DNA from: Candidatus Bathyarchaeota archaeon
Lineage (GTDB): Archaea; Thermoproteota; Bathyarchaeia; Bathyarchaeales; DTEX01
NCBI GenBank assembly: GCA_018397065.1
Contig: JAGTRI010000001.1
Location: forward strand, 1-64,000
Length of the DNA: 64,000 nt
Reading direction: 5' to 3'
The notes under the pieces were generated by a model. It was not told the DNA's origin, made no database searches, and was given only the letters and a program-made list of their open reading frames with translations. Of this stretch, positions 3,481 to 22,951 are shown in pieces; position 1 is the stretch's first letter, and each line of letters begins with the position of its first letter. A program made the position numbers and the translations under genes.

Positions 3481-5655
3481 TTACCTTTCTTTAGATACCT
3501 TTTTCACAAATGATATGCATTTTGCCTTAAATGTTTCGTAGCTGCTTGAAAACTCGTCCATTGTCTTTACGACCGCCCCAAATTTTGGCCATTGCGAAGG
3601 TAAGATTCCCTTGGAACCATACTGTTCAACATCGGGTATTTTGGCTTTTTTTAGAATTTCAGATTGGGCCTCTGTTATTTCATAGAATTTTGTTACTTCG
3701 TTCTTTAAATCGTTGGTGTCCCCAATTAATCTTTGAAGAATTGCGGAATCAAGAGGCTTAAAGATAGATTCAAGGCAGTTTTCAATTTTGAAGCTTGGCT
3801 CTGAACATGCTGACAAAACTGCTGTTTGGTGGTTAGGAAATTCAGTGTGCGTCACGTTTGTTCCTGCTAAGGTAAGAAGCGTTTCTTTTATATGTCTCTT
3901 GGAAGCCGGAAGAATGTCGATTCCGAAAAGCACTTTCTTAGCCTGCTCTTCAGTTAAGTCATACTTAGTTTGCAAATATGATATCCATCTTGGCTTGTTT
4001 TGAGGACTAAAGAAAATTTCGTACACTCTTTTAGTTACAAGTATACCGCAGTATCCGATATCGTTCTCCAGCGTTTCCAGATAGGCTTTAACTCTCTCTT
4101 CTGAGTTGCATGGCACACCATGTTTTGCAAGGAACCGAACCATCTGCTCCTTATTTAATGGACGAAGATACTTTCGGCTGCTAACAACTGTTATTTTTTC
4201 AGCCAGAGTTTTTTTCTGAGAAACTTCTTCCCATGCTCCAAGCTCCTCAGCAAAGTTTTTCAGCGCGAAATCTTTGTCAGATGCTTCTTCTATCGCTTTC
4301 TTCACAAGCGCCTCAGCCTGAACCTCTCTTACATGGTCATCAAGTCTTCCACCCATGTTTGTCTCGTACACGGTTGTTAAAGGAATGCCCTTCTTAACTG
4401 CCTCGGCTCTTCCCTCTATCTTTGCAAGTATTAATTCAACCATCTGTGAAACAGTAAAAGTAACCGTATTGTTTGTTCCAATCCCTAGACTTTCAAGTTT
4501 TCTTGTGATATCAATTGAAGCTGGGGAGCTTCCTGCAACTTTAAAAACTATGTTTGGTCTTCCCCTCTCCACATTTTCTGAGTATCCCCACAACAGCCAA
4601 GCGTCATAAAGTCTAAGAAACTCTTGAGCGTCCAAGTAAAATTTTAGGGCGTAGTTCACGCTTTCTTCGTAGTTGTCAGCAATAAACGGATTAAGCTGAA
4701 GGCTTATCATTCCGTGAACCATGTTCGAGGCGACGGCGATAGGTCGAAAGACTGTTAGATTCCGCCAGATGCTGACTTCGGTTGCGTAAGCAGTTATTTC
4801 GTCTCCGAATTTCTCAGGATCCTTTAAGAGTTCTGGATGTTGCTTGATTATGACTTTAAAATCGGGACATAGATCTTCGCCGTTATAGCCTTCCCACATT
4901 GAGGGGTCATCCTCATAGGCTACTGCAGCTAAAGATGGATTAGTTGTTACTTGAACAAAGCCCACGTGACGTAAGAATCTAAGTCCCAAAGCATAGTCGT
5001 TTCCAAACTTACATGCTCCCATCATGCTAAGTTTATGATATATGTTGCTTTGAATCTCTTGCTCAGACAACCTTAAAAAGGACCCAAGAATATCCTCTTT
5101 GTTAAGATTTTTTTCAATTTTTTCTGCAATGTGTGCAACCATGGCTCCTGGATGCCTGTATACAACCTTCATTACGGTTTTCATTTCTGTTAAGGTTCTT
5201 TCTACCACTGCCTTGGCAATTGACGCCTCATTTTGATCATCATTGCGGGCTTTGCCTCTTTCAAGTGCCTCCAAATCCTTTAAGGCCGTTGTCAATAAAG
5301 TAAGAGAATTTTTTACCTCGCTTTCGGAAAACCCTATAATCTTTCTTTCAAACCCAATAAGGTTTAGAGCCATGTTTAACAAGGTGTCGTAAATTCTTGC
5401 GCATTGAACAATTTTTTCCTCGTACCTCTTGTTGAGAATAGCCTCATTGAATACGAGGTTAAGTTTACGAATTGCGTTGCCTAATGTCTCTTCTAAGTGT
5501 CCCCTCATTTCAGGATGAAGGATGTGATCTGCTGCAAGTTTACAATACCCTTTCAAGGTTAATCTGGTAATATGATCTGCATGATCTAGGCTCAGAGGAA
5601 AGTTTTCCAGTTCATCTGGTTTTGTTTGCATTAATATATCTGAAACTTTTTTCAA
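3481..5655 (-). CDS. Large transaldolase-family protein (724 residues)
   Basis: The central third (about residues 215-470) reads as a TAL/FSA aldolase barrel: a VTTNPSLAA motif, SLQLNPF, a LKFYLDAQ strand, VFKVAGSSPAS carrying the likely Schiff-base lysine, then TVTFTVSQ. Known transaldolases move a dihydroxyacetone unit between sugar phosphates and are 220-340 residues. This protein is more than twice as long. About 215 N-terminal residues are helical, and about 250 C-terminal residues match no domain I recognise. It converges on the DHH gene with no gap. Sugar-phosphate chemistry is likely, but specificity and the flanking domains are unknown. Confidence 0.75.
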   Translation of the reverse strand: MKKVSDILMQTKPDELENFPLSLDHADHITRLTLKGYCKLAADHILHPEMRGHLEETLGNAIRKLNLVFNEAILNKRYEEKIVQCARIYDTLLNMALNLIGFERKIIGFSESEVKNSLTLLTTALKDLEALERGKARNDDQNEASIAKAVVERTLTEMKTVMKVVYRHPGAMVAHIAEKIEKNLNKEDILGSFLRLSEQEIQSNIYHKLSMMGACKFGNDYALGLRFLRHVGFVQVTTNPSLAAVAYEDDPSMWEGYNGEDLCPDFKVIIKQHPELLKDPEKFGDEITAYATEVSIWRNLTVFRPIAVASNMVHGMISLQLNPFIADNYEESVNYALKFYLDAQEFLRLYDAWLLWGYSENVERGRPNIVFKVAGSSPASIDITRKLESLGIGTNNTVTFTVSQMVELILAKIEGRAEAVKKGIPLTTVYETNMGGRLDDHVREVQAEALVKKAIEEASDKDFALKNFAEELGAWEEVSQKKTLAEKITVVSSRKYLRPLNKEQMVRFLAKHGVPCNSEERVKAYLETLENDIGYCGILVTKRVYEIFFSPQNKPRWISYLQTKYDLTEEQAKKVLFGIDILPASKRHIKETLLTLAGTNVTHTEFPNHQTAVLSACSEPSFKIENCLESIFKPLDSAILQRLIGDTNDLKNEVTKFYEITEAQSEILKKAKIPDVEQYGSKGILPSQWPKFGAVVKTMDEFSSSYETFKAKCISFVKKVSKER

Positions 5656-5765: not shown

Positions 5766-6971
5766 TTAACTTTTTGTTGTGCTCCTACCTTTTTTAAGTC
5801 GCGATATTTCTTCACTTGTGAGTATTTCTTTCGGATGAATGAAGGTTACGCCTATCTGAGCTACTCTTAGGTCTCTTGTCGTTATCCACTCCTTTCCGTG
5901 CGCCAATGATGAGTGAGGATGAAGCTGAACATCCTCTGGAAACACGTCCTCAGCTATTCTATACAGAAATCCTGACCTTTTTCCGTCATGTTTAATTGTT
6001 CCTTCATCTGAAACGCTGACAATCGTTGGTGCGTGGGAAAACACTCTTGCCAATTCCTCGTCCTGGGTAATAGTAGATCCTTTTTTGAGGAGGCCCAATC
6101 TTAGAGGAGAGCCGTGGAACCATGGTCTGGAATAGTCTATTGACGGCGTAAATTCTTCTTCTTTTTGCTTAATAGCCTTCAAGTCAAGAGACTTCAGCCA
6201 GTCCACAGTTTCTTTAATAACTTCGGCTGTGTGCTCTTTTAATGTGAAAACGTGGTCTCCGCCTTTAACTATGTGAAGTTTGTTTTTATCATTTAGGCCT
6301 TTAATTATTTCATAGCCTCGCAATGCAACCTTCAAAGGAACTGTTTGGTCAGAATCACCATGCACAATTAGAACGGGTGCCTTAATCTTGTCCATGACGT
6401 CGTAGGGGACCGTTTCATCCAATGTGTCAAAGAAAGGCTTCTTGAGATACCAACCATTATTGAGCGAAACACTTTCGCCTCTCTTAAGCAGCTCAAGTTT
6501 TTCACTTCTGACCATGCCTTCGAACATCTGTTTTAATGGAGCCAACGCTGCGGAATACAATACAACGTATTTTACGCGGTTATCCTTAGAGGCAAGAATC
6601 GAAGCGACCCTTCCACCCATGCTCAATCCAATCACGCCAATCAACTTGTCATCGACTTCTGGAAGGCTGGACAAAAACGTAAGCGCCTGTTCAGCGTCGC
6701 TTACCTCTCCGGGAACAGTCATGTCCTCAAAGTCGCCGTCGCTGTCCCCAGAGCCTCTAAAATCGAAACGTAGAACAACAAAGCCAGCCTTGCATAGGGC
6801 TCTCGCAATTTGGACAAAAAACCTGTGGGCCTCAGACTTGTGTCCTGTAAACCCGTGGAACATTGCGATAGCTGGAGCTTTCTGATCTGGGAAAAGATTG
6901 TCGGGCACGTGCAAGATGCCAACCAGCTGCTGCCCGTGGTTAGTGAATGATACCGGCTTTATCATTTTCAC
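5766..6971 (-). CDS. Alpha/beta hydrolase with an extra C-terminal domain
   Basis: Residues 1-265 form a serine hydrolase of the acylaminoacyl-peptidase/esterase group: HGFTGHKSE oxyanion loop, GLSMGG nucleophile elbow (Ser near 119), an acidic residue in VHGDSDQTVP and the catalytic His in GGDHVF. Residues about 280-385 are not part of that fold. They begin WFHGSPLRLGLLKKGS, continue ELARVFSHAP and end near IGVTFIHP. This is reminiscent of the HG(T/S) opening of ADP-ribosyltransferase-like domains, an inference from a short motif. The gene is 29 bases downstream of the MBL-fold gene on the same strand and probably cotranscribed. Substrate is unknown. Confidence 0.8.
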   Translation of the reverse strand: MKMIKPVSFTNHGQQLVGILHVPDNLFPDQKAPAIAMFHGFTGHKSEAHRFFVQIARALCKAGFVVLRFDFRGSGDSDGDFEDMTVPGEVSDAEQALTFLSSLPEVDDKLIGVIGLSMGGRVASILASKDNRVKYVVLYSAALAPLKQMFEGMVRSEKLELLKRGESVSLNNGWYLKKPFFDTLDETVPYDVMDKIKAPVLIVHGDSDQTVPLKVALRGYEIIKGLNDKNKLHIVKGGDHVFTLKEHTAEVIKETVDWLKSLDLKAIKQKEEEFTPSIDYSRPWFHGSPLRLGLLKKGSTITQDEELARVFSHAPTIVSVSDEGTIKHDGKRSGFLYRIAEDVFPEDVQLHPHSSLAHGKEWITTRDLRVAQIGVTFIHPKEILTSEEISRLKKGRSTTKS

Positions 6972-8234: not shown

Positions 8235-10457
8235 CTAGGTTTCCTCTGATAGTATTCTGTCCACAACTAGTTGCCTTAGGTTTTTCGATAGGCTTGCGAA
8301 GTACGCGCTGAATCCTGTTACGCGCACGATGAGGTTTGGGTACTTCGAAGGGTCTTGATGGGCCTCAAGAATCTGCTTCTTGTCAATAACATTCATGTTA
8401 ATCATGGTTCCGCCCAGTTCAAAGTGCCCTTTTATCAAGGCCTCAACCTTCGCCAACCCTTCCTCGCCTCGAGCTAATCCAGGATCCATATCGAGCTGCA
8501 AAGGCGCAGTATTGCCGTATCCACATTGTACGGATGCAACAGCCACAGCCATCGCGGTGGGCGCACTTCCGCCTCTAAGAAAACCAGGGTCTGGACTAGC
8601 ACCGTGAGAAATCGGAGCGTGTGCATGCCGACCGTTAGGCGTTGCCCCAACCGTTTGACCCATCGAGATCATTGATGCCCACGAGAAAAGACCAGGAATT
8701 ACGTTGAATCCTGCTGGCGTAGGTTTCTCTTTTACGAACTTGGTGAAAGCTTGAACGATGCGGATCGCCCATTGGTCTGCCCTTGTGCCACCACGACCGT
8801 ACCGTGGAACACTGGACAGCATTAGCCGAACGTTTTCTGCGTCTTTGAAGTCGTTTTTCAAGTGTTCAGCTAACTGCTGCCACGTTAACAGGCCCTCTTT
8901 TTCGACACGTTGCTCTACAGCAGCAAATGAGTCAGCGACCGTGGCGAGGCCAGAGCCGTCTATGCATAGGTTGTAATATTCTACGCCGCCGTTGGATGCG
9001 TCTAGGCCTTTTTCAATTGTTCCGTAACATAATAGGTCTAGAACAAGTTCTGGGAAAACCTTGTGCATGTTTTTCATGTGAAAGTCAAGTCCTTCCTTAG
9101 TGACTTCCACGGCTCGATGCAGTTGTTTCTCAAAACGGCTCCACAACTCATCTACGCTTGGCTTAATCTCAGAATCGTTCATCATGTCCCAAAATGCAAC
9201 CTCAAAAACCTTCGCAAAGTTGATTTTGACACAGTCGTTCAACGTGTACTCTCGACCTGGAATTGCAAACCAGTGGCAACCCGAGTAGACCCGCTGACGG
9301 GCAAGCTTCACGGAGTAACCGTTTTTTACGAAGCCTTCAACCAGCCCCTTGTCGCCGAGAAATTTGGGAAAGCCGGTTTTGTCTTCAAACATGATTTCGA
9401 CTCCTCTACGTAGAAGTTCAGGGTTAAGACCGTCGAAAACTCGGATGCCGATGTTGGCGGGGACCTTCAGTCTGTGAACAGCTTCCAAAACAAGGAACGA
9501 CACCTTATTAGTTGTGTCTTTGCCTTCACCGTCAGGTCCTCCAAGCTGATAATACTGCGTATCGTTAAGCAGCAAACATGCAAGGTGAAAGATTGCCTCC
9601 TCGTCGGTCAATGTGCCAGCTGCTGATTCACGTTCATAATAGGGCTTAAGCCACACGTCAATTTGGCCCATTGACCCGCTTCCATTATACATACGGGCAA
9701 TCATCTGATACCAAACTGTCCACTGGCAAGCCTCACGGAAGGTTCTAGGAGGCTTAGAGATAAGCCACTCGTTAATTTCAGCAATCTCCTCCAAGTTGCG
9801 ACGTAAGGTTGGGTTCTTTTCTTTTTTAGCCATCTCACGGGCGACTTCAACGTGGCGGCGAATCCAGTCTTGAACGCCGAGTACAACTTGCTCTAAACCA
9901 TCGTAAAAGTCAGACCTTTCAGGATTAAGTTTTCTATAACGACGTATCTTTCTAAGCAACCCTCCCCAGCCGAGCCTAAAGCCGATTGTCATGTCCTGAC
10001 AGAAATGTTGAGTAGCCCCAATTCCAGGATATACGCCATATTTTCTCTGCTCATCTTCCAAGTTTGAGGCAAGCTCAGGAGGCCAGCTCGGGTTTCTGTA
10101 ACCCATAAAATAGGCCATGTATCCTCCTGCCAGTGAACTCATGGGATTAATGTAAACTGGATGAGCTTTGAGAAAAAGATTGAAGTTTTCGCCACAAGCC
10201 TTCGCGCCGAAAAATCCTCCGCTTGGGTGATTGCTTTTCGGCTTAAAGTTATTCATTTTTACGTCTCTCACCATCTCGCCAGAGGGTCCCATATATTCAG
10301 TAATCTCCCTTAACTCGGGAGGTGGCAAAATTCTACCATGGTCATCTTGATCCATTACGAGGAGGACTTCCTGCTTTTCCCTAGTTTGCTGCATCTTGGT
10401 TTTGCATAAAGCCTCTAGCCTTTGCTCGTAAGTTAGCTCTAAAAATTCTTTAGCCAA
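8235..10457 (-). CDS. Glycyl radical enzyme, pyruvate-formate-lyase-like superfamily
   Basis: The protein has 740 residues, the usual length of PFL2/glycerol-dehydratase-type enzymes. The C-terminal glycyl radical loop is RVTGFSAYFASL, with the radical Gly about 26 residues from the end. The thiyl cysteine lies in VYSGCHWFAIPG near residue 404. In dehydratases, CutC and related lyases the residue two after this Cys is normally Glu; here it is Trp, so a simple dehydratase call is not justified. These enzymes are cytosolic and oxygen sensitive. The gene follows its activase by 96 bases on the same strand. The reaction (decarboxylation, C-C lyase or addition) is undetermined. Confidence 0.88.
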   Translation of the reverse strand: MAKEFLELTYEQRLEALCKTKMQQTREKQEVLLVMDQDDHGRILPPPELREITEYMGPSGEMVRDVKMNNFKPKSNHPSGGFFGAKACGENFNLFLKAHPVYINPMSSLAGGYMAYFMGYRNPSWPPELASNLEDEQRKYGVYPGIGATQHFCQDMTIGFRLGWGGLLRKIRRYRKLNPERSDFYDGLEQVVLGVQDWIRRHVEVAREMAKKEKNPTLRRNLEEIAEINEWLISKPPRTFREACQWTVWYQMIARMYNGSGSMGQIDVWLKPYYERESAAGTLTDEEAIFHLACLLLNDTQYYQLGGPDGEGKDTTNKVSFLVLEAVHRLKVPANIGIRVFDGLNPELLRRGVEIMFEDKTGFPKFLGDKGLVEGFVKNGYSVKLARQRVYSGCHWFAIPGREYTLNDCVKINFAKVFEVAFWDMMNDSEIKPSVDELWSRFEKQLHRAVEVTKEGLDFHMKNMHKVFPELVLDLLCYGTIEKGLDASNGGVEYYNLCIDGSGLATVADSFAAVEQRVEKEGLLTWQQLAEHLKNDFKDAENVRLMLSSVPRYGRGGTRADQWAIRIVQAFTKFVKEKPTPAGFNVIPGLFSWASMISMGQTVGATPNGRHAHAPISHGASPDPGFLRGGSAPTAMAVAVASVQCGYGNTAPLQLDMDPGLARGEEGLAKVEALIKGHFELGGTMINMNVIDKKQILEAHQDPSKYPNLIVRVTGFSAYFASLSKNLRQLVVDRILSEET

Positions 10458-10553
10458 CCTTTATCACGTCCAACGGAAGGTTTTTTGCTTCTCTATGAAT
10501 AGCATAAAAGAGAAAGAAGTGTCTTAATTCAGTTTCGATTAAAAGTTTAGGGC

Positions 10554-11522
10554 CTAGTTCTCGCGAACTTTTATTCCCAGCTTTTTCGCTGCCTCCGACA
10601 GTTCTCTCATTTTCTCTTTTGTCGGAACTGCCAAGTTACTTGCAGAGTACTCAAGCCCAAGAGCTTTGTATTTGCCTTCTCCTAACCGATGAAAAGGCAA
10701 TAATTCCAAGTATTCAAGATTAGAAAATTCTTTTACGAACTCTGCGATGGCCTCAACCTCGCTTTTTGTGTCGTTAAAGCCAGGAATAATGGGTACACGT
10801 ATAATGAGTGGTTTTCTGGTCTTCGACAATCTCTTGGCGTTGTCCAGAATTACCTTATTCGAAACTCCCGTTGCATTTCTATGTTTCTCAGAGTCAATGT
10901 GCTTAATATCCATCATAACTAGGTCAAGCATAGGAAGCAGCCGTGCTAAGATGTTCCACGGACAATTAGCAGCAGTCTCGATTGCGGTGTGTAAACCGAC
11001 CTTTTTGCACTTTTTTAGCAGAGCCCAAGAAAAACCATGTTGCACAATCGGGTCGCCTCCTGAAAGTGTTACTCCACCACCGGAGGTTTCATAAAAAACT
11101 TTGTCTCTTAAGACCTCGTTCATGACCTCGTCGACTGTCATTTCCCGTCCGACGAGAACAAGTGTGCCCGCATAACAAGTTTGTGTACATTTCCCACACG
11201 CATTACACTTCTCTCTAAGAAAGATGTGGGCACCGTCCTTTACAACGTGAGCCTTGTTTGGGCAAGATAGAAGGCAGTTTCCGCAGGAGATGCATCGATC
11301 AGGATAGAACATGACTTCAGGTTTAAGATGGATGCCTTCTGGGTTTTGACACCAGAAACAGCGAAGAGTGCAGCCTTTAAGAAAAATTGTTGTACGTATA
11401 CCTGGGCCGTCATGAACAGAAAATCGCTGTATGTCAAAGACCGTTCCTTTTAATGTTTGCTGGGTCAATGTTTTTCGAGTACAATTGTTGCGTTTCAATA
11501 ATAAATCTTCTCTTATAGGCAT
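10554..11522 (-). CDS. Glycyl-radical enzyme activating enzyme (radical SAM)
   Basis: This activase uses S-adenosylmethionine and a [4Fe-4S] cluster to create the glycyl radical on the neighbouring enzyme. The radical SAM motif is GCTLRCFWC (C-x3-C-x2-C), preceded by FSVHDGPGIRTT. Two inserted ferredoxin clusters follow, CISCGNCLLSCP and CNACGKCTQTC, as in activases of non-PFL glycyl radical enzymes. SGGGVTLSGGDP is the GGE-like SAM-binding segment. It has 322 residues and is encoded just upstream of the glycyl radical enzyme on the same strand, so the two form an operon. About 25 residues precede the conserved TVFDIQRFSVHDG; a later start is possible. Confidence 0.93.
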   Translation of the reverse strand: MPIREDLLLKRNNCTRKTLTQQTLKGTVFDIQRFSVHDGPGIRTTIFLKGCTLRCFWCQNPEGIHLKPEVMFYPDRCISCGNCLLSCPNKAHVVKDGAHIFLREKCNACGKCTQTCYAGTLVLVGREMTVDEVMNEVLRDKVFYETSGGGVTLSGGDPIVQHGFSWALLKKCKKVGLHTAIETAANCPWNILARLLPMLDLVMMDIKHIDSEKHRNATGVSNKVILDNAKRLSKTRKPLIIRVPIIPGFNDTKSEVEAIAEFVKEFSNLEYLELLPFHRLGEGKYKALGLEYSASNLAVPTKEKMRELSEAAKKLGIKVREN

Positions 11523-17950: not shown

Positions 17951-19264
17951 TTATTTGTTTTTTATTTTTTTGAGGTCACCATCGTATGAGGCTTTAAGAA
18001 TGCTTTTCATGTACTTGTCTATGTCTCCTTTGTCTACATCTAATGGCGTCGGCATGTTCTGCAATTTCATTTTGAGCTGAGGATCTTTTGCTGCTTCAAG
18101 CATCCTTTTGATATGCGATGTTGTTGCTCCTGCTTCTTTAAGGGTTGTTGGAAAGCCAAGTGACTTGTTAAAATCAATCATCGCCTTTGCTACGATTTCA
18201 CCTAGATTTCTACCTTCGAACCCTTCAAGATCAAGATTTTTTTCAATAAATCCTGCCTCTTGGAATATTGCGCCAAGGATCTTAAGTTGTTCTTGAATAT
18301 TTGATGAAAAGAACACCGTATAATACGGGTTAAGCACTGCGCATGCTCTGCCATGAGAAAGAACGTCCACAAGCGAGAAACTTCCGAGATGAGGACCGCT
18401 TGTGCCACCTATCATTATCGAATAGCCACCTAAGTCAGTTCCAAGTCCAAGTGCAACTCTTGCTTCAATGTCGTCTTTAAGTGCAGCCCTAAGATTTTTT
18501 ACAATTAACCTTATTCCAAGCGATGCCACGGTCTTTGATTTTTCAAAGTAATCTTTGCCAGTAGCGCCCATAAAAACCTCCCAACAATGTGCGATTCCGT
18601 CCATGGCTCCATCAAGAGTCAAGTTTTCTGGTGAACCAACCGTTACACCATAGTCAAATAGTGCCTTTTTAGGTGTAATTGCGTCGTCCACAATTAACTT
18701 CTTCTGACCCAACACGGGATCAGTTATGTTAGAGTATTTTGTCAAGTGCGCAGCAGAGCTTGAGGCAGCTTGAACCGCAATGACTGGTATAATGTCTTTG
18801 TTTGTGGCAGTTTTCATTTTAGTAACATTTCCCGTCCCGAAAAAGGGATCAACCGAACATGCGACACTCCAATCGACATTTAGTACCTTAGAAATTTCCG
18901 ACGGCTCAAAAACAGCCAAGAAGCTTGCAGCCTTGGCAGCATCAATTGTGCTTCCTCCTCCAAAAGCCACAATGCTGTCCGGTTTAAATCTGGCAACCTG
19001 AAATGTTATCCTATATAAGTCTTCACGTGGACAGTTTGGTCTTGCGCCTAAGACAGTGTTAAAGGATATGCCTGTTTTCTTTAGAGACTCTGAAATTTTT
19101 TGCATATGGCTCTGCGCCCATTTCGAACTGCTTCCCACCAAAAGTGCATTGTCACCAAAGGTTTTCGCCATCTCTCCAACTTCGTCGAGGATTTCTAATC
19201 CAAAGACGTAAGACTCTTTTTTCCATTCTCTCAGCAATTTTTTGGCTTCAACTTTTTCGTCCAT
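17951..19264 (-). CDS. Iron-containing alcohol dehydrogenase
   Basis: The 437-residue protein belongs to the Fe-dependent (group III) alcohol dehydrogenases, which interconvert alcohols and aldehydes or ketones with NAD(P)H. Visible are the nucleotide-binding VAFGGGSTIDAAKA (about 98-111), the metal-binding DGAMDGIAHCWE region, and a LSHGRACAVLNPYY segment with the third metal histidine. The order matches the family, though the extended length and VDPFFGTGN segment set it apart from well-known members. It lies 68 bases from tRNA-Arg. It could pair with AOR nearby in alcohol/aldehyde balance, an inference. Confidence 0.87.
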   Translation of the reverse strand: MDEKVEAKKLLREWKKESYVFGLEILDEVGEMAKTFGDNALLVGSSSKWAQSHMQKISESLKKTGISFNTVLGARPNCPREDLYRITFQVARFKPDSIVAFGGGSTIDAAKAASFLAVFEPSEISKVLNVDWSVACSVDPFFGTGNVTKMKTATNKDIIPVIAVQAASSSAAHLTKYSNITDPVLGQKKLIVDDAITPKKALFDYGVTVGSPENLTLDGAMDGIAHCWEVFMGATGKDYFEKSKTVASLGIRLIVKNLRAALKDDIEARVALGLGTDLGGYSIMIGGTSGPHLGSFSLVDVLSHGRACAVLNPYYTVFFSSNIQEQLKILGAIFQEAGFIEKNLDLEGFEGRNLGEIVAKAMIDFNKSLGFPTTLKEAGATTSHIKRMLEAAKDPQLKMKLQNMPTPLDVDKGDIDKYMKSILKASYDGDLKKIKNK

Positions 19265-19450
19265 ATTTTAAGAGTCCCTCCATGAGTATAATATCGTTTA
19301 CTAAATCTTTCAGCATGCAAATTCTTGATGTTCAACACTTATTTTTTCTATGCTTTTATCTATTTCCTTTTGTTTCAAACCCATTGATTTAGTCGAAAAC
19401 TTAAAAACCAACTTTCTACATCATAGGTGAATTAAAATTGTAAATGACTG

Positions 19451-20470
19451 GTGAAATCTTTGAACTTAACAAGCCGTAAGAAAATTTACGTGACAAGAGA
19501 ACTACTTCCAGAAGCAATGGAAATTCTTAAATCCAAATTCAAGATTGAGGTTTGGCATGGAGAAACGCCACCTCCAAAAAGCCTTTTGCTCGAAAAGGTA
19601 AAGGAAGTCGACGGCATCATATGCGTTTTAACAGAAAAGTTTGATAAGGAAGTTATTGAGGCTGCAGGCCCACAGCTTCGCGGAATTTGCCAAGTTGCTG
19701 TTGGCTTTGATAACATCGATGTTGAAGCTGCAACGAAAAAGGGTATCTATGTCACAAATACACCTGGGGTTTTAACTGAAACGACAGCTGACTTTGCTTT
19801 TGCCTTGCTTATGGCGACAGCTCGACGGGTGGCAGAAGCTGACAAGTATGTTAAGTCTGGGCAGTGGAACGTTCCTTGGGGGCTTACGATGCTTCTTGGA
19901 CAGGACGTTTATGGCAAAACAATTGGCATAATAGGCATCGGCAGAATTGGCTCAGCTGTTGCGAGACGAGCTAAAGGCTTCAACATGAGAATTCTGTATT
20001 ATGACGTTTTCCGTAATGAACAGATAGAGAAAGAATTGGGTGCCGAGTTTACGTCTTTAGAAAATCTTCTTAAAGAGTCTGACTTTGTGACAATTCACGT
20101 GCCGTTGATGCCTGAAACCTATCACCTAATGAACGAAGAAAGACTAAGGTTGATGAAGAGAACAGCCTGTCTCATTAACACGTCAAGAGGACCGGTTGTT
20201 GACGAAAAAGCCCTTTACAAAGCACTTAAAGAAAAATGGATCTGGGCTGCTGGATTAGATGTGTGGGAAAAAGAGCCAGTTGACCCCGATAATCCTTTGC
20301 TTAAACTGGATAACGTCACGGCAGCACCTCACATCGCAAGCGGAAGCATAGCTACAAGAACAAAAATGTCAGTGATGGCAGCAGAGAACATGATCGCCAT
20401 CTTAGAAGGACGCGTGCCTCCGAATCTTGTGAATAAGGAAGTTTTGAAGGTCAGGCCTCCGACGAAATAA
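19451..20470 (+). CDS. D-2-hydroxyacid dehydrogenase, glyoxylate/hydroxypyruvate reductase type
   Basis: The 339-residue protein matches archaeal glyoxylate reductase/glycerate dehydrogenase enzymes: QVAVGFDNIDVEAA, TNTPGVLTETTADFAF, the Rossmann GIIGIGRIGSAVA, INTSRGPVVDEKAL with the substrate Arg, a Glu in WEKEPV and the catalytic His in APHIASGS. It reduces 2-oxoacids such as glyoxylate or hydroxypyruvate with NAD(P)H. The GTG at 19451 gives MKSLNLTSRKKIYVTREL; a later start near KKIYVTREL is possible because an AGGTGA lies too far upstream. It is a single gene, convergent with AOR. Confidence 0.88.
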   Translation: MKSLNLTSRKKIYVTRELLPEAMEILKSKFKIEVWHGETPPPKSLLLEKVKEVDGIICVLTEKFDKEVIEAAGPQLRGICQVAVGFDNIDVEAATKKGIYVTNTPGVLTETTADFAFALLMATARRVAEADKYVKSGQWNVPWGLTMLLGQDVYGKTIGIIGIGRIGSAVARRAKGFNMRILYYDVFRNEQIEKELGAEFTSLENLLKESDFVTIHVPLMPETYHLMNEERLRLMKRTACLINTSRGPVVDEKALYKALKEKWIWAAGLDVWEKEPVDPDNPLLKLDNVTAAPHIASGSIATRTKMSVMAAENMIAILEGRVPPNLVNKEVLKVRPPTK

Positions 20471-20533
20471 AAATTTACTTTCATCTTTTTTAATTACTTC
20501 ACGTTAAACTGAAGATTTCTGAGACGGTTATTA

Positions 20534-22414
20534 CTATTTAGGAAGGTTTTTTCTTATTTCATCAAGTTTCACGTCAACATCTTGCAGTCCAAGCCTTCTA
20601 AGCTCAGTAGATAGTGGAACTCCATTTTCGTCCCAGCCTATGGCTTCGTAGTATTCCTTACGGTCTCTGTTAAGCCTCTCACGGTCAACTGCTTTACCCT
20701 TGTATGGACCAGCTCCCAGAGGTGTATACCACCGCAATGGCACATCGTCGTCTTTCAGTGGTACCCATTGCAGATCAGGTCCTCCTAACAGAAGAAGAGC
20801 CCTTTGAATGTGCAATATTCTTCGACCAACCGTTTCAATCCATTGTTTTTCCGTAATTCTCCAACCGGTAACAGCTTCTATGAAGGGCCAAAGCAAATCT
20901 TGTGCTTCTTTTTCGAAGAAGTTAAACCAACAGAACACTCCTGTATCATAAAGTAAAGATCTGAGTTCGCTGTTTCCGTGGTCCAAGGGAAATCTAGCCA
21001 CAGACGTGTGGTCTCCAGCCTGCACTGAACAGGCGTATGATTCATATCCTGGATAGTCTTCTTCGCTTCGAATGCCATGCGCGCCGATTGCTACTCCTTT
21101 CTCGGTAACGTCATAGAGTGAAACATCAACACCTTTCAGCTTACTTATTATAAGTGCTGCCCTATGGGTTCCCTCGGCTAGTATGTCGCCAATACCCTTT
21201 CGGTCAGCTATCATCTGAGCCAAGGTGGAAAAAGCCTTTGTGTTACCCCATTTCAGCTCAATGCCTTCAAAATCTTGTTTAGTTAAGATGCCTTTTTCGT
21301 AAAGCTCAGCTGCAAACCCGAGAACGTTCCCTGCTTGTATGCCACATAACCCAAGTTCGTCTATAAGCGCAGTTAAGTAGATGTTTTCCTCAGCACTAAA
21401 AATGCCCAAGTTTGTTCCAAGGTACGCTTGGTTTTCATAATCAGGGTTATCCGTAATAGAACCTTCAAAAGGACCTGACCTAATGACCGCAAGTTTCAAG
21501 CAAGATGTGGGACAACCAAAATCTGCCCAGTACCGTTTTACCCAGTATTTCTCAAATTCGTATGAACCGTAGCTTTCTTCATTGTGCCATTCTTCTTGCC
21601 AGTTTCTTACTGGTTCCGAACTTGTACGGGAGCCAACATCGTGACCTAAATTGCCTGTGCCCCAACGCCTAAAAACTATATTTCTAAAGTTGATTTCCAG
21701 AATCTTGTTAATCAGCATCAAAACCTTTTCCATGTATACAACGTCAGGTAAGGGTTCAGTTCCCTTCACCACGACCGCCTTCAAGTTTTTTGACCCCATA
21801 ACCCCTCCGTAGCCGCCATAGCCAGCTGCATGAGCCCATTTCGCTGCGACAACTGCTATTCTACTTCGTTTTTCACCTGCTGGCCCAATATACATGATTT
21901 GAGGTTCCTTCCATAAGCCGCGTCTTGGAAAACGACTTGAAAGTTCTTCTCTGCATTCTTTCACGAGTGTCTTAAGCGTTTCCTGACTTCCTTTTCCCCA
22001 AATGTGGTTTGCGGGTTTCAACTCCACTTCAGAGTCCTTTATGAAAAGGTAAACAGGTTTCTCGGCCTTTCCATAGAAAATGATTCCGTCGTAACCTGCG
22101 CATTTCAGCTCCACGGCGAATTCGCCTCCAACAGTTGAGCCTACTACTCCGTTGGATTGAGGAGACTTCCCTGAAACACAAAGCCTTGCGCCCGGAACGT
22201 AGCCAGTTAATGGTCCAGATAGCATAAGAAGCAAGTTTTCTGGTCCTAAAGGATCAGTTTGTTCCCAGTTTTTTCCAAGTTTGTCCCAGAGAATTTTTGT
22301 GGCTAATCCTCTTCCGCCAATGTATTGGCTAAGAATATCTTCGTTAAATCTTGTTTCTTTTATATTTTTGCTTGAAAGATCGACTTCAAGAAACTTTCCA
22401 GCGTACCCTTTCAT
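20534..22414 (-). CDS. Aldehyde:ferredoxin oxidoreductase family tungsten enzyme
   Basis: AOR enzymes oxidise aldehydes to acids in the cytosol using a tungsto- or molybdopterin and one [4Fe-4S] cluster. The 626 residues show the N-terminal KGYAGKFLEVDLSS, GPLTGYVPGARLCVSGKSP, VGSTVGGEFAVELKCAGYDGI and KWAHAAGYGGYGGVMGSKNLKA. The cluster motif, normally C-x2-C-x3-C, reads DFGCPTSC here, so the first Cys is Asp. The distal Cys appears in DTGVFCWF. It directly follows the ferredoxin gene with no gap, so the two make one operon and probably one complex. Substrate unknown. Confidence 0.9.
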   Translation of the reverse strand: MKGYAGKFLEVDLSSKNIKETRFNEDILSQYIGGRGLATKILWDKLGKNWEQTDPLGPENLLLMLSGPLTGYVPGARLCVSGKSPQSNGVVGSTVGGEFAVELKCAGYDGIIFYGKAEKPVYLFIKDSEVELKPANHIWGKGSQETLKTLVKECREELSSRFPRRGLWKEPQIMYIGPAGEKRSRIAVVAAKWAHAAGYGGYGGVMGSKNLKAVVVKGTEPLPDVVYMEKVLMLINKILEINFRNIVFRRWGTGNLGHDVGSRTSSEPVRNWQEEWHNEESYGSYEFEKYWVKRYWADFGCPTSCLKLAVIRSGPFEGSITDNPDYENQAYLGTNLGIFSAEENIYLTALIDELGLCGIQAGNVLGFAAELYEKGILTKQDFEGIELKWGNTKAFSTLAQMIADRKGIGDILAEGTHRAALIISKLKGVDVSLYDVTEKGVAIGAHGIRSEEDYPGYESYACSVQAGDHTSVARFPLDHGNSELRSLLYDTGVFCWFNFFEKEAQDLLWPFIEAVTGWRITEKQWIETVGRRILHIQRALLLLGGPDLQWVPLKDDDVPLRWYTPLGAGPYKGKAVDRERLNRDRKEYYEAIGWDENGVPLSTELRRLGLQDVDVKLDEIRKNLPK

Positions 22415-22951
22415 TTAAACGGATTCCCTCCATTTTTTGCCATAAATTTGTGAAGCAACATCTCTGGTAATGATTTCAGGTGTCTTAGCATATAGCTTGA
22501 AGGTATGTGTTTCAGATTTTTTAATTATCTCCAAAGCATTCCATCTTCCGGCAGCGCAGGCTTCGACGCATTTTGGTTTCCCATTGCACAAGTCACAAAT
22601 TACAACATAATTATCAGTTGGGTGAATGTACGGAATCTTGCCGGGACAAGCATCGATACATTTCCCGCAGGCTATACATGTTTCTTTGTCAACGATAACG
22701 GCTTCGGTTTGTTTGTTGATTGATAATGCTTTTGTTGGGCAGGCCTCCACGCAGGGATAATCGTGGCATTGCACGCAAAGGTGTGGGATCTCTACGCCTG
22801 GAAGAAGCATGAAAACCCTTATCCGTGAAGCCTCAGGCCATATTTTGCCTTCGTGGCTAAGTGAACAGACTATTTCGCATCTTCGGCAACCGCTGCATCT
22901 AAGATAGTCTCTAGCTATCCAAACACGTTCATTCTCTGACAACCCTTTCAC
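22415..22951 (-). CDS. Four-cluster ferredoxin, electron-transfer partner of AOR
   Basis: This 178-residue protein has the DmsB/HycB-type set of ferredoxin motifs: CSGCRRCEIVCS, CVQCHDYPCVEACP, CIACGKCIDACP and CDLCNGKPKCVEAC. Together these supply sixteen Cys for four [4Fe-4S] clusters. Such proteins carry electrons from AOR-like subunits to ferredoxin or other partners. The stop abuts the AOR start. The track begins at a GTG, but a GGTGA sits five bases before a TTG three codons in (22942), giving a start just before SENERVWIARD; I think that is the real start. Confidence 0.88.
   Translation of the reverse strand: MKGLSENERVWIARDYLRCSGCRRCEIVCSLSHEGKIWPEASRIRVFMLLPGVEIPHLCVQCHDYPCVEACPTKALSINKQTEAVIVDKETCIACGKCIDACPGKIPYIHPTDNYVVICDLCNGKPKCVEACAAGRWNALEIIKKSETHTFKLYAKTPEIITRDVASQIYGKKWRESV

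Follow-up and report, generated by a model that had tools for sequence, protein, structure and literature searches.

What does a glycyl-radical enzyme (GRE) do when the glutamate of its active site has been replaced by a tryptophan? GREs catalyse bond cleavages that are among the most difficult in anaerobic metabolism, and each assigned GRE lyase compared here depends on a Cys-x-Glu pair. In known GRE lyases the conserved glutamate deprotonates a hydroxyl of the substrate, as stated for IseG (PMC6453916). The question is raised by a gene pair in the window, as we call the 64,000-nucleotide stretch of DNA analysed here (positions 1 to 64,000 of contig JAGTRI010000001.1, assembly GCA_018397065.1, from a Candidatus Bathyarchaeota archaeon). 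The original prediction, made from the letters alone, placed a GRE with an atypical Cys-His-Trp motif and its activase at 8235-11522, and proposed a different reaction in an archaeon, possibly decarboxylation, C-C cleavage or radical addition.

The enzyme and its activase

Both open reading frames lie at the predicted positions and are supported by Pfam and NCBIfam models. The GRE gene occupies 8235..10457 on the reverse strand, begins with TTG and encodes 740 amino acids that match Pfam PF02901 (PFL-like, E 2.4e-102) and PF01228 (Gly_radical, E 9e-16); it is the single PF02901 match across the genome as assembled, which is 72% complete. The protein carries what marks a member of the GRE superfamily: a PFL-like domain, a C-terminal Gly_radical domain, a radical glycine, a thiyl cysteine and a cognate radical SAM activase beside it. 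The thiyl loop reads SGCHWFAIPG, and within it Cys394-His395-Trp396 (9270..9278, reverse strand) holds the thiyl cysteine and, in place of the lyase glutamate, the tryptophan. In the radical loop, IVRVTGFSAYF, the radical glycine, Gly715 (8313..8315, reverse strand), stands in an RVTGF context where most other GREs have RVAGY. Further along the cysteine loop are the polar residues Glu403-Tyr404 and Asp408 (9234..9251, reverse strand), candidates for relocated acid/base groups, while His151 (10005..10007, reverse strand) aligns with His164 of glycerol dehydratase in a pairwise alignment to 1r8w. Each of these residues, from His151 through Cys394, Trp396, Glu403, Tyr404 and Asp408 to Gly715, is invariant in the 45 family members described below. 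An AlphaFold model built from a 10-row alignment is confidently assigned to the GRE fold by Foldseek, which gives 66 PDB matches at E <= 0.001, the best at 1e-27; its mean pLDDT is 68 and both the cysteine and glycine loops fall below 50, so we draw no residue-level conclusion or pocket comparison from it.

The activase, a radical SAM enzyme of 322 amino acids, is encoded 96 bp upstream of the GRE (10554..11522, reverse strand) and scores 379.8 bits against TIGR02494 (NCBIfam PFLE_PFLC), where the cut-off is 174. The CX3CX2C motif of the radical SAM cluster can be read at residues 51-58 (11349..11372, reverse strand), followed by two CX2CX2CX3C ferredoxin motifs at residues 77-87 and 106-116 (11175..11294, reverse strand; also Pfam Fer4). 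These two extra clusters had been offered as a clue to the reaction; both are indeed present, but since an 8-Cys ferredoxin domain is common to many GRE activases (PMC6453916; PMC6181972), they say little about it. The activase also matches the models of the activases of the arylacetate decarboxylases HPAD and IAD, below their cut-offs, and reaches 265 bits against the BssD model (cut-off 496). Other collected loci of the family likewise carry related activase genes.

A family with a fixed Cys-x-Trp motif

Genomes of the archaeal phylum, Chloroflexota and others, together with a plasmid collection, were scanned for relatives, which yielded 45 near-complete family members (44-98% identical). 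They come from Bathyarchaeia, Chloroflexota, Flammeovirga and one further bacterial metagenome-assembled genome (MAG); scans of viral contigs returned no relatives. Of 300 genomes sampled from the archaeal phylum, 24 had any match and 4 of these carried the family; in one Chloroflexota class it was present in 34 of 396 sampled genomes. A single Chloroflexota genome has up to four paralogues. The records nearest to the window GRE are Candidatus Bathyarchaeota MAGs, and the archaeal framing holds for the window's own gene; most relatives found belong to Chloroflexota.

Every one of the 45 members has Cys-x-Trp (33 GCHW and 12 GCNW), against Glu at position Cys+2 in five of six reference GREs (PflD, YbiW, HypD, CutC and the sequence L099) and Ser in the sixth, PFL, which confirms that the motif is atypical. 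The same motif occurs in a 98% identical gene of a separate Bathyarchaeial MAG, and GCHW is thus not a sequencing error; the Cys-x-Trp motif is neither chance nor error. The residue after the radical glycine is Phe in 35 members (all 33 with GCHW and two with GCNW, L134 and Flammeovirga) and Tyr in 10, where the reference GREs have Tyr, and a stretch of about 20 residues that precedes the conserved GG of the reference GREs is missing. Residues that are invariant and specific to the family include Tyr302, Gln304, Trp396, Gln654 and His678. Others are held in common with known enzymes: the equivalent of His151 is a histidine in PflD, YbiW and HypD, Tyr404 and Asp408 are shared with PflD, Glu403 is shared with HypD, and PflD is the only one of the six references to share all of His151, Asp155, Tyr404 and Asp408.

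Departures from Cys-x-Glu are also seen in other GREs of Bathyarchaeia and their phylum (L016, L022, L024 and L034, with loops such as GCLGYH, GCVTIS and SCKDLT): the pair has been abandoned in several archaeal GRE lineages, and loss of the glutamate is not unique to the Cys-x-Trp family. Two GRE paralogues in a genome of the same taxonomic family as the window's (L018 and L036 in genome G100) have threonine at the radical-glycine position (LVRVATYTAYF and LVRVATWTARF) and thiyl loops that likewise lack the glutamate (GCFMIS and GCASPA), and, judging from these sequences, both may have the GRE fold yet carry no glycyl radical. Elsewhere, GRE copies in two Chloroflexota MAGs (L009 6021-8179 and L080 9372-11582) are broken by a frameshift or an in-frame stop, through decay or assembly error.

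Relation to known glycyl-radical enzymes

The window GRE reaches no NCBIfam equivalog cut-off. Its best model is TIGR01774 (PFL2-3 subfamily), at 282 bits against a cut-off of 678; the HPAD and IAD models give 130-148 bits against 1150 and 1100, and the PFL model 93 bits against 994. Identity to the other GREs compared is 21-30% over the alignment and does not exceed about 32% in local matches, and characterised or solved GREs come no nearer to the family than about 26-32%. In a quick tree, drawn midpoint-rooted, the family forms one side of a branch of length 2.77 with an SH-aLRT support of 100. Among the GREs compared, the protein does not cluster inside any characterised subfamily with GCHW and a known reaction, the placement on which the original prediction would have failed. 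In the open-licence literature that we searched we found no description of a GCHW or GCNW GRE, which is weak as an absence, and one paper on polysaccharide utilization loci (PULs) has GREs in its reference list only. On these three grounds, with no equivalog reached, no close characterised or solved GRE and no paper found on the motif, we take the family as a new GRE variant, a subfamily that by sequence lies outside every named GRE subfamily tested. The "pyruvate formate lyase family" and similar names that databases give to its members probably mislead.

When the family profile was scored against solved GRE structures, E. coli PflD came first with 310 bits, followed by the PflD of S. dysgalactiae (280) and by glycerol dehydratase and CutC (278 each); MasD (160) and TutD (147) were among the weakest full-length matches, and the HPAD structure 2y8n was weak as well. 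PflD and YbiW open 1,5-anhydro-hexitol-6-phosphates, the substrate of PflD being 1,5-anhydromannitol-6-phosphate (PMC12441222), and the S. dysgalactiae structure was solved with this compound, according to its PDB title. PflD (8yjo from E. coli, 8id0 from S. dysgalactiae) shares with the family His151, Asp155, Tyr404, Asp408, Arg712 and Gly715 and has a similar IPGR-x-Y-x-L-x-D loop, but it is only 26% identical, and the family differs in having Trp for its Glu at Cys+2, RVTGF for RVAGY, no stretch of about 20 residues and no linked PTS. The B12-independent glycerol dehydratase (1r8w/1r9d) is alike in fold, and its Cys433, Asp447 and His164 have equivalents in the window GRE, whereas its Glu435 corresponds to Trp396. 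The family as a whole departs from the Cys-x-Glu rule of the lyases and dehydratases of the glycerol, diol, CutC, HypD, IslA and PflD types. Also among the closest known proteins is an uncharacterised one of Flammeovirga kamogawensis (KM029_RS26175, "pyruvate formate lyase family protein"), which belongs to the same family (45-47% identity), has RITGF and its own activase, and differs from the window GRE in its GCNW motif and in its position within a GH92/GH130/GH47 glycan locus.

Gene neighbourhoods

Next to the window GRE are genes for an MBL-fold protein, an alpha/beta hydrolase, a TAL-domain protein and a cation efflux transporter, the same neighbours as in the near-identical MAG; the adjacent genes are not sugar genes, and a GH4 gene lies 4 kb past the activase. 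The TAL-domain gene (3481-5655) encodes a 724-residue protein whose sole recognised domain, TAL_FSA (transaldolase/F6P aldolase), lies in its centre; NCBIfam gives no match. In E. coli, fsaA adjoins ybiW, but we rejected the TAL_FSA gene as a functional link, since among the collected loci it is seen again in L002 alone, the 98% identical MAG. The hydrolase (5766-6971) has about 130 extra C-terminal residues (from YSRPWFHGSPLRLG) with no Pfam match there. Farther out, 6-11 kb past the activase (17951-22951), we read genes resembling an iron-type alcohol dehydrogenase, a hydroxyacid dehydrogenase, an aldehyde:ferredoxin oxidoreductase and a ferredoxin; a similar gene of the aldehyde:ferredoxin oxidoreductase type is also near the GRE in L004. 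DegT aminotransferases are found near three Bathyarchaeial copies and differ in placement and sequence. Overall, the window-side neighbours are uninformative or unconserved.

The bacterial loci point to carbohydrates, and several of them have genes for mannose, amino sugars or sialic acid. The Flammeovirga activase and GRE sit in a locus that also encodes GH92, GH47 and GH130 enzymes, SusC/D, a sulfatase and a sodium symporter. A common block recurs in three or four Chloroflexota loci, its genes coming from the set NanE, BadF/GlcNAc-kinase-like, GH32, ThuA, Gfo/Idh/MocA and GH29; one locus (L090) has a sialidase directly upstream; and others have NanA-like genes, GH38 with a sugar isomerase, GH130 (mannobiose-phosphorylase-like), sulfatases and genes resembling sugar-acid dehydratases. 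Sulfatases adjoin two members and lie in the locus of a third. Gfo/Idh/MocA genes made up 7/125 of the near genes (<2.6 kb from the GRE) against at most 1/125 of the far ones (>4 kb), and genes resembling uroporphyrinogen decarboxylase (URO-D) 7/125 against 2/125, in both cases across loci that are not independent. The URO-D-like genes recur beside Chloroflexota GCHW and GCNW genes, for example in L009, L053, L073, L079, L080, L128 and L136. Neighbourhoods are variable and many copies of the family stand alone. Because the enrichment is modest, the loci are non-independent and many copies are solo, the carbohydrate link that gene context provides is a modest signal, and suggestive only.

Which reaction?

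That the enzyme carries out a different reaction, as originally proposed, is plausible for an uncharacterised GRE with a non-standard motif; the specific guesses found no support. Decarboxylation of an arylacetate was the first suggestion. In its favour, GRE decarboxylases occur in anaerobes and the window activase matches those of HPAD and IAD under the cut-off; HPAD and IAD also share the fold, the Cys and Gly and a two-cluster activase with the window enzyme. Yet both decarboxylases keep Glu two residues after the thiyl cysteine (PMC6181972), their own models leave the window GRE far below threshold, the HPAD structure is a weak match and the annotated neighbours include no arylacetate genes, all of which makes this reading very improbable. 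No more weight can be given to C-C cleavage as in PFL, a 2-oxoacid formate lyase. The annotation of a relative as a pyruvate formate lyase family protein and the fact that the genome, 72% complete, has no second PF02901 gene speak for it, but PflB has a Cys-Cys pair where the window GRE has Gly393-Cys394, which makes PFL activity unlikely; identity to PflB is 21%, the PFL model scores far below its cut-off and the activase has two clusters. Just as remote is radical addition to fumarate, for the activation of hydrocarbons or other substrates. X-succinate synthases cleave a C-H bond by hydrogen abstraction and do not require a base for deprotonating a hydroxyl, which would suit the missing glutamate, and they share the GRE fold; against this stand the weak TutD and MasD matches (147-160 bits, where PflD has 310), the lack of any close relation to BssA or AssA, the activase score well under the BssD cut-off, informative gene contexts that are of the glycan type, and no hydrocarbon genes among the inspected neighbours. 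Among the neighbours as annotated, no small beta/gamma subunits or CoA-transferase were seen.

What we favour, tentatively and at somewhat less than an even chance, is a radical C-O (or C-N) lyase acting on a sugar-derived polyol (a sugar, anhydro-sugar, amino sugar or derivative), with both substrate and bond being what we infer. The standing of PflD as best profile match among solved relatives, the shared His151, Asp155, Tyr404 and Asp408 and the glycan-type contexts of several bacterial loci argue for such a sugar lyase, and the up to four paralogues in one Chloroflexota genome would fit catabolic enzymes. Weighing against it, PflD outscores glycerol dehydratase and CutC by a small margin and the identity is just 26%; neighbourhoods vary, URO-D-like genes are equally common nearby, the window's adjacent genes are not sugar genes, and the AlphaFold model is weak at both active-site loops. 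By homology, the activase would place a radical on Gly715, from which it would pass to Cys394, whose thiyl would abstract a hydrogen at a carbinol carbon. A spin-centre shift would then cleave the C-O (or C-N) bond next to that carbon, and the product radical would regain its hydrogen from Cys394. His151, Tyr404 and Asp408, retained from a pocket of the PflD/glycerol-dehydratase type, would hold the hydroxyls of the substrate. Because there is no Glu at Cys+2, deprotonation would fall to another group (Glu403, Asp408 and His151 are candidates) or would not be needed, and Trp396 probably shapes the pocket, for instance by stacking on a sugar ring.

All GRE lyase references compared keep Glu at Cys+2, and its loss therefore argues against the same mechanism repeated; tryptophan in its place argues against the standard chemistry of dehydratases and of arylacetate decarboxylases alike. 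An enzyme without 1,2-elimination, which would carry out some other reaction on a carbohydrate-linked metabolite (C-C cleavage, epimerisation, isomerisation, or cleavage of an acetamide or sulfate substituent), is the serious rival to the lyase, though we consider it unlikely. It would account for a glutamate lost in all 45 sequences, for the invariant Tyr302, Gln304, Gln654 and His678, for the missing 20-residue stretch and for the sulfatases at three loci, but the PflD-like pocket residues His151, Tyr404 and Asp408 are retained and no particular alternative is backed by a relative of known chemistry.

Somewhat doubtful is the broader proposal that Chloroflexota, marine Bacteroidota and Bathyarchaeia share a radical reaction new to GREs, on a glycan-derived sugar and without the canonical Glu base, such as the breaking of a C-N or C-O bond in an unphosphorylated compound derived from mannose, GlcNAc or sialic acid. 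A clade that spans archaea and bacteria with Cys-x-Trp fixed, and that adjoins glycan-degradation genes in several bacteria, would test how much remodelling the GRE active site tolerates and might reveal a new anaerobic route of sugar breakdown in sediment organisms.
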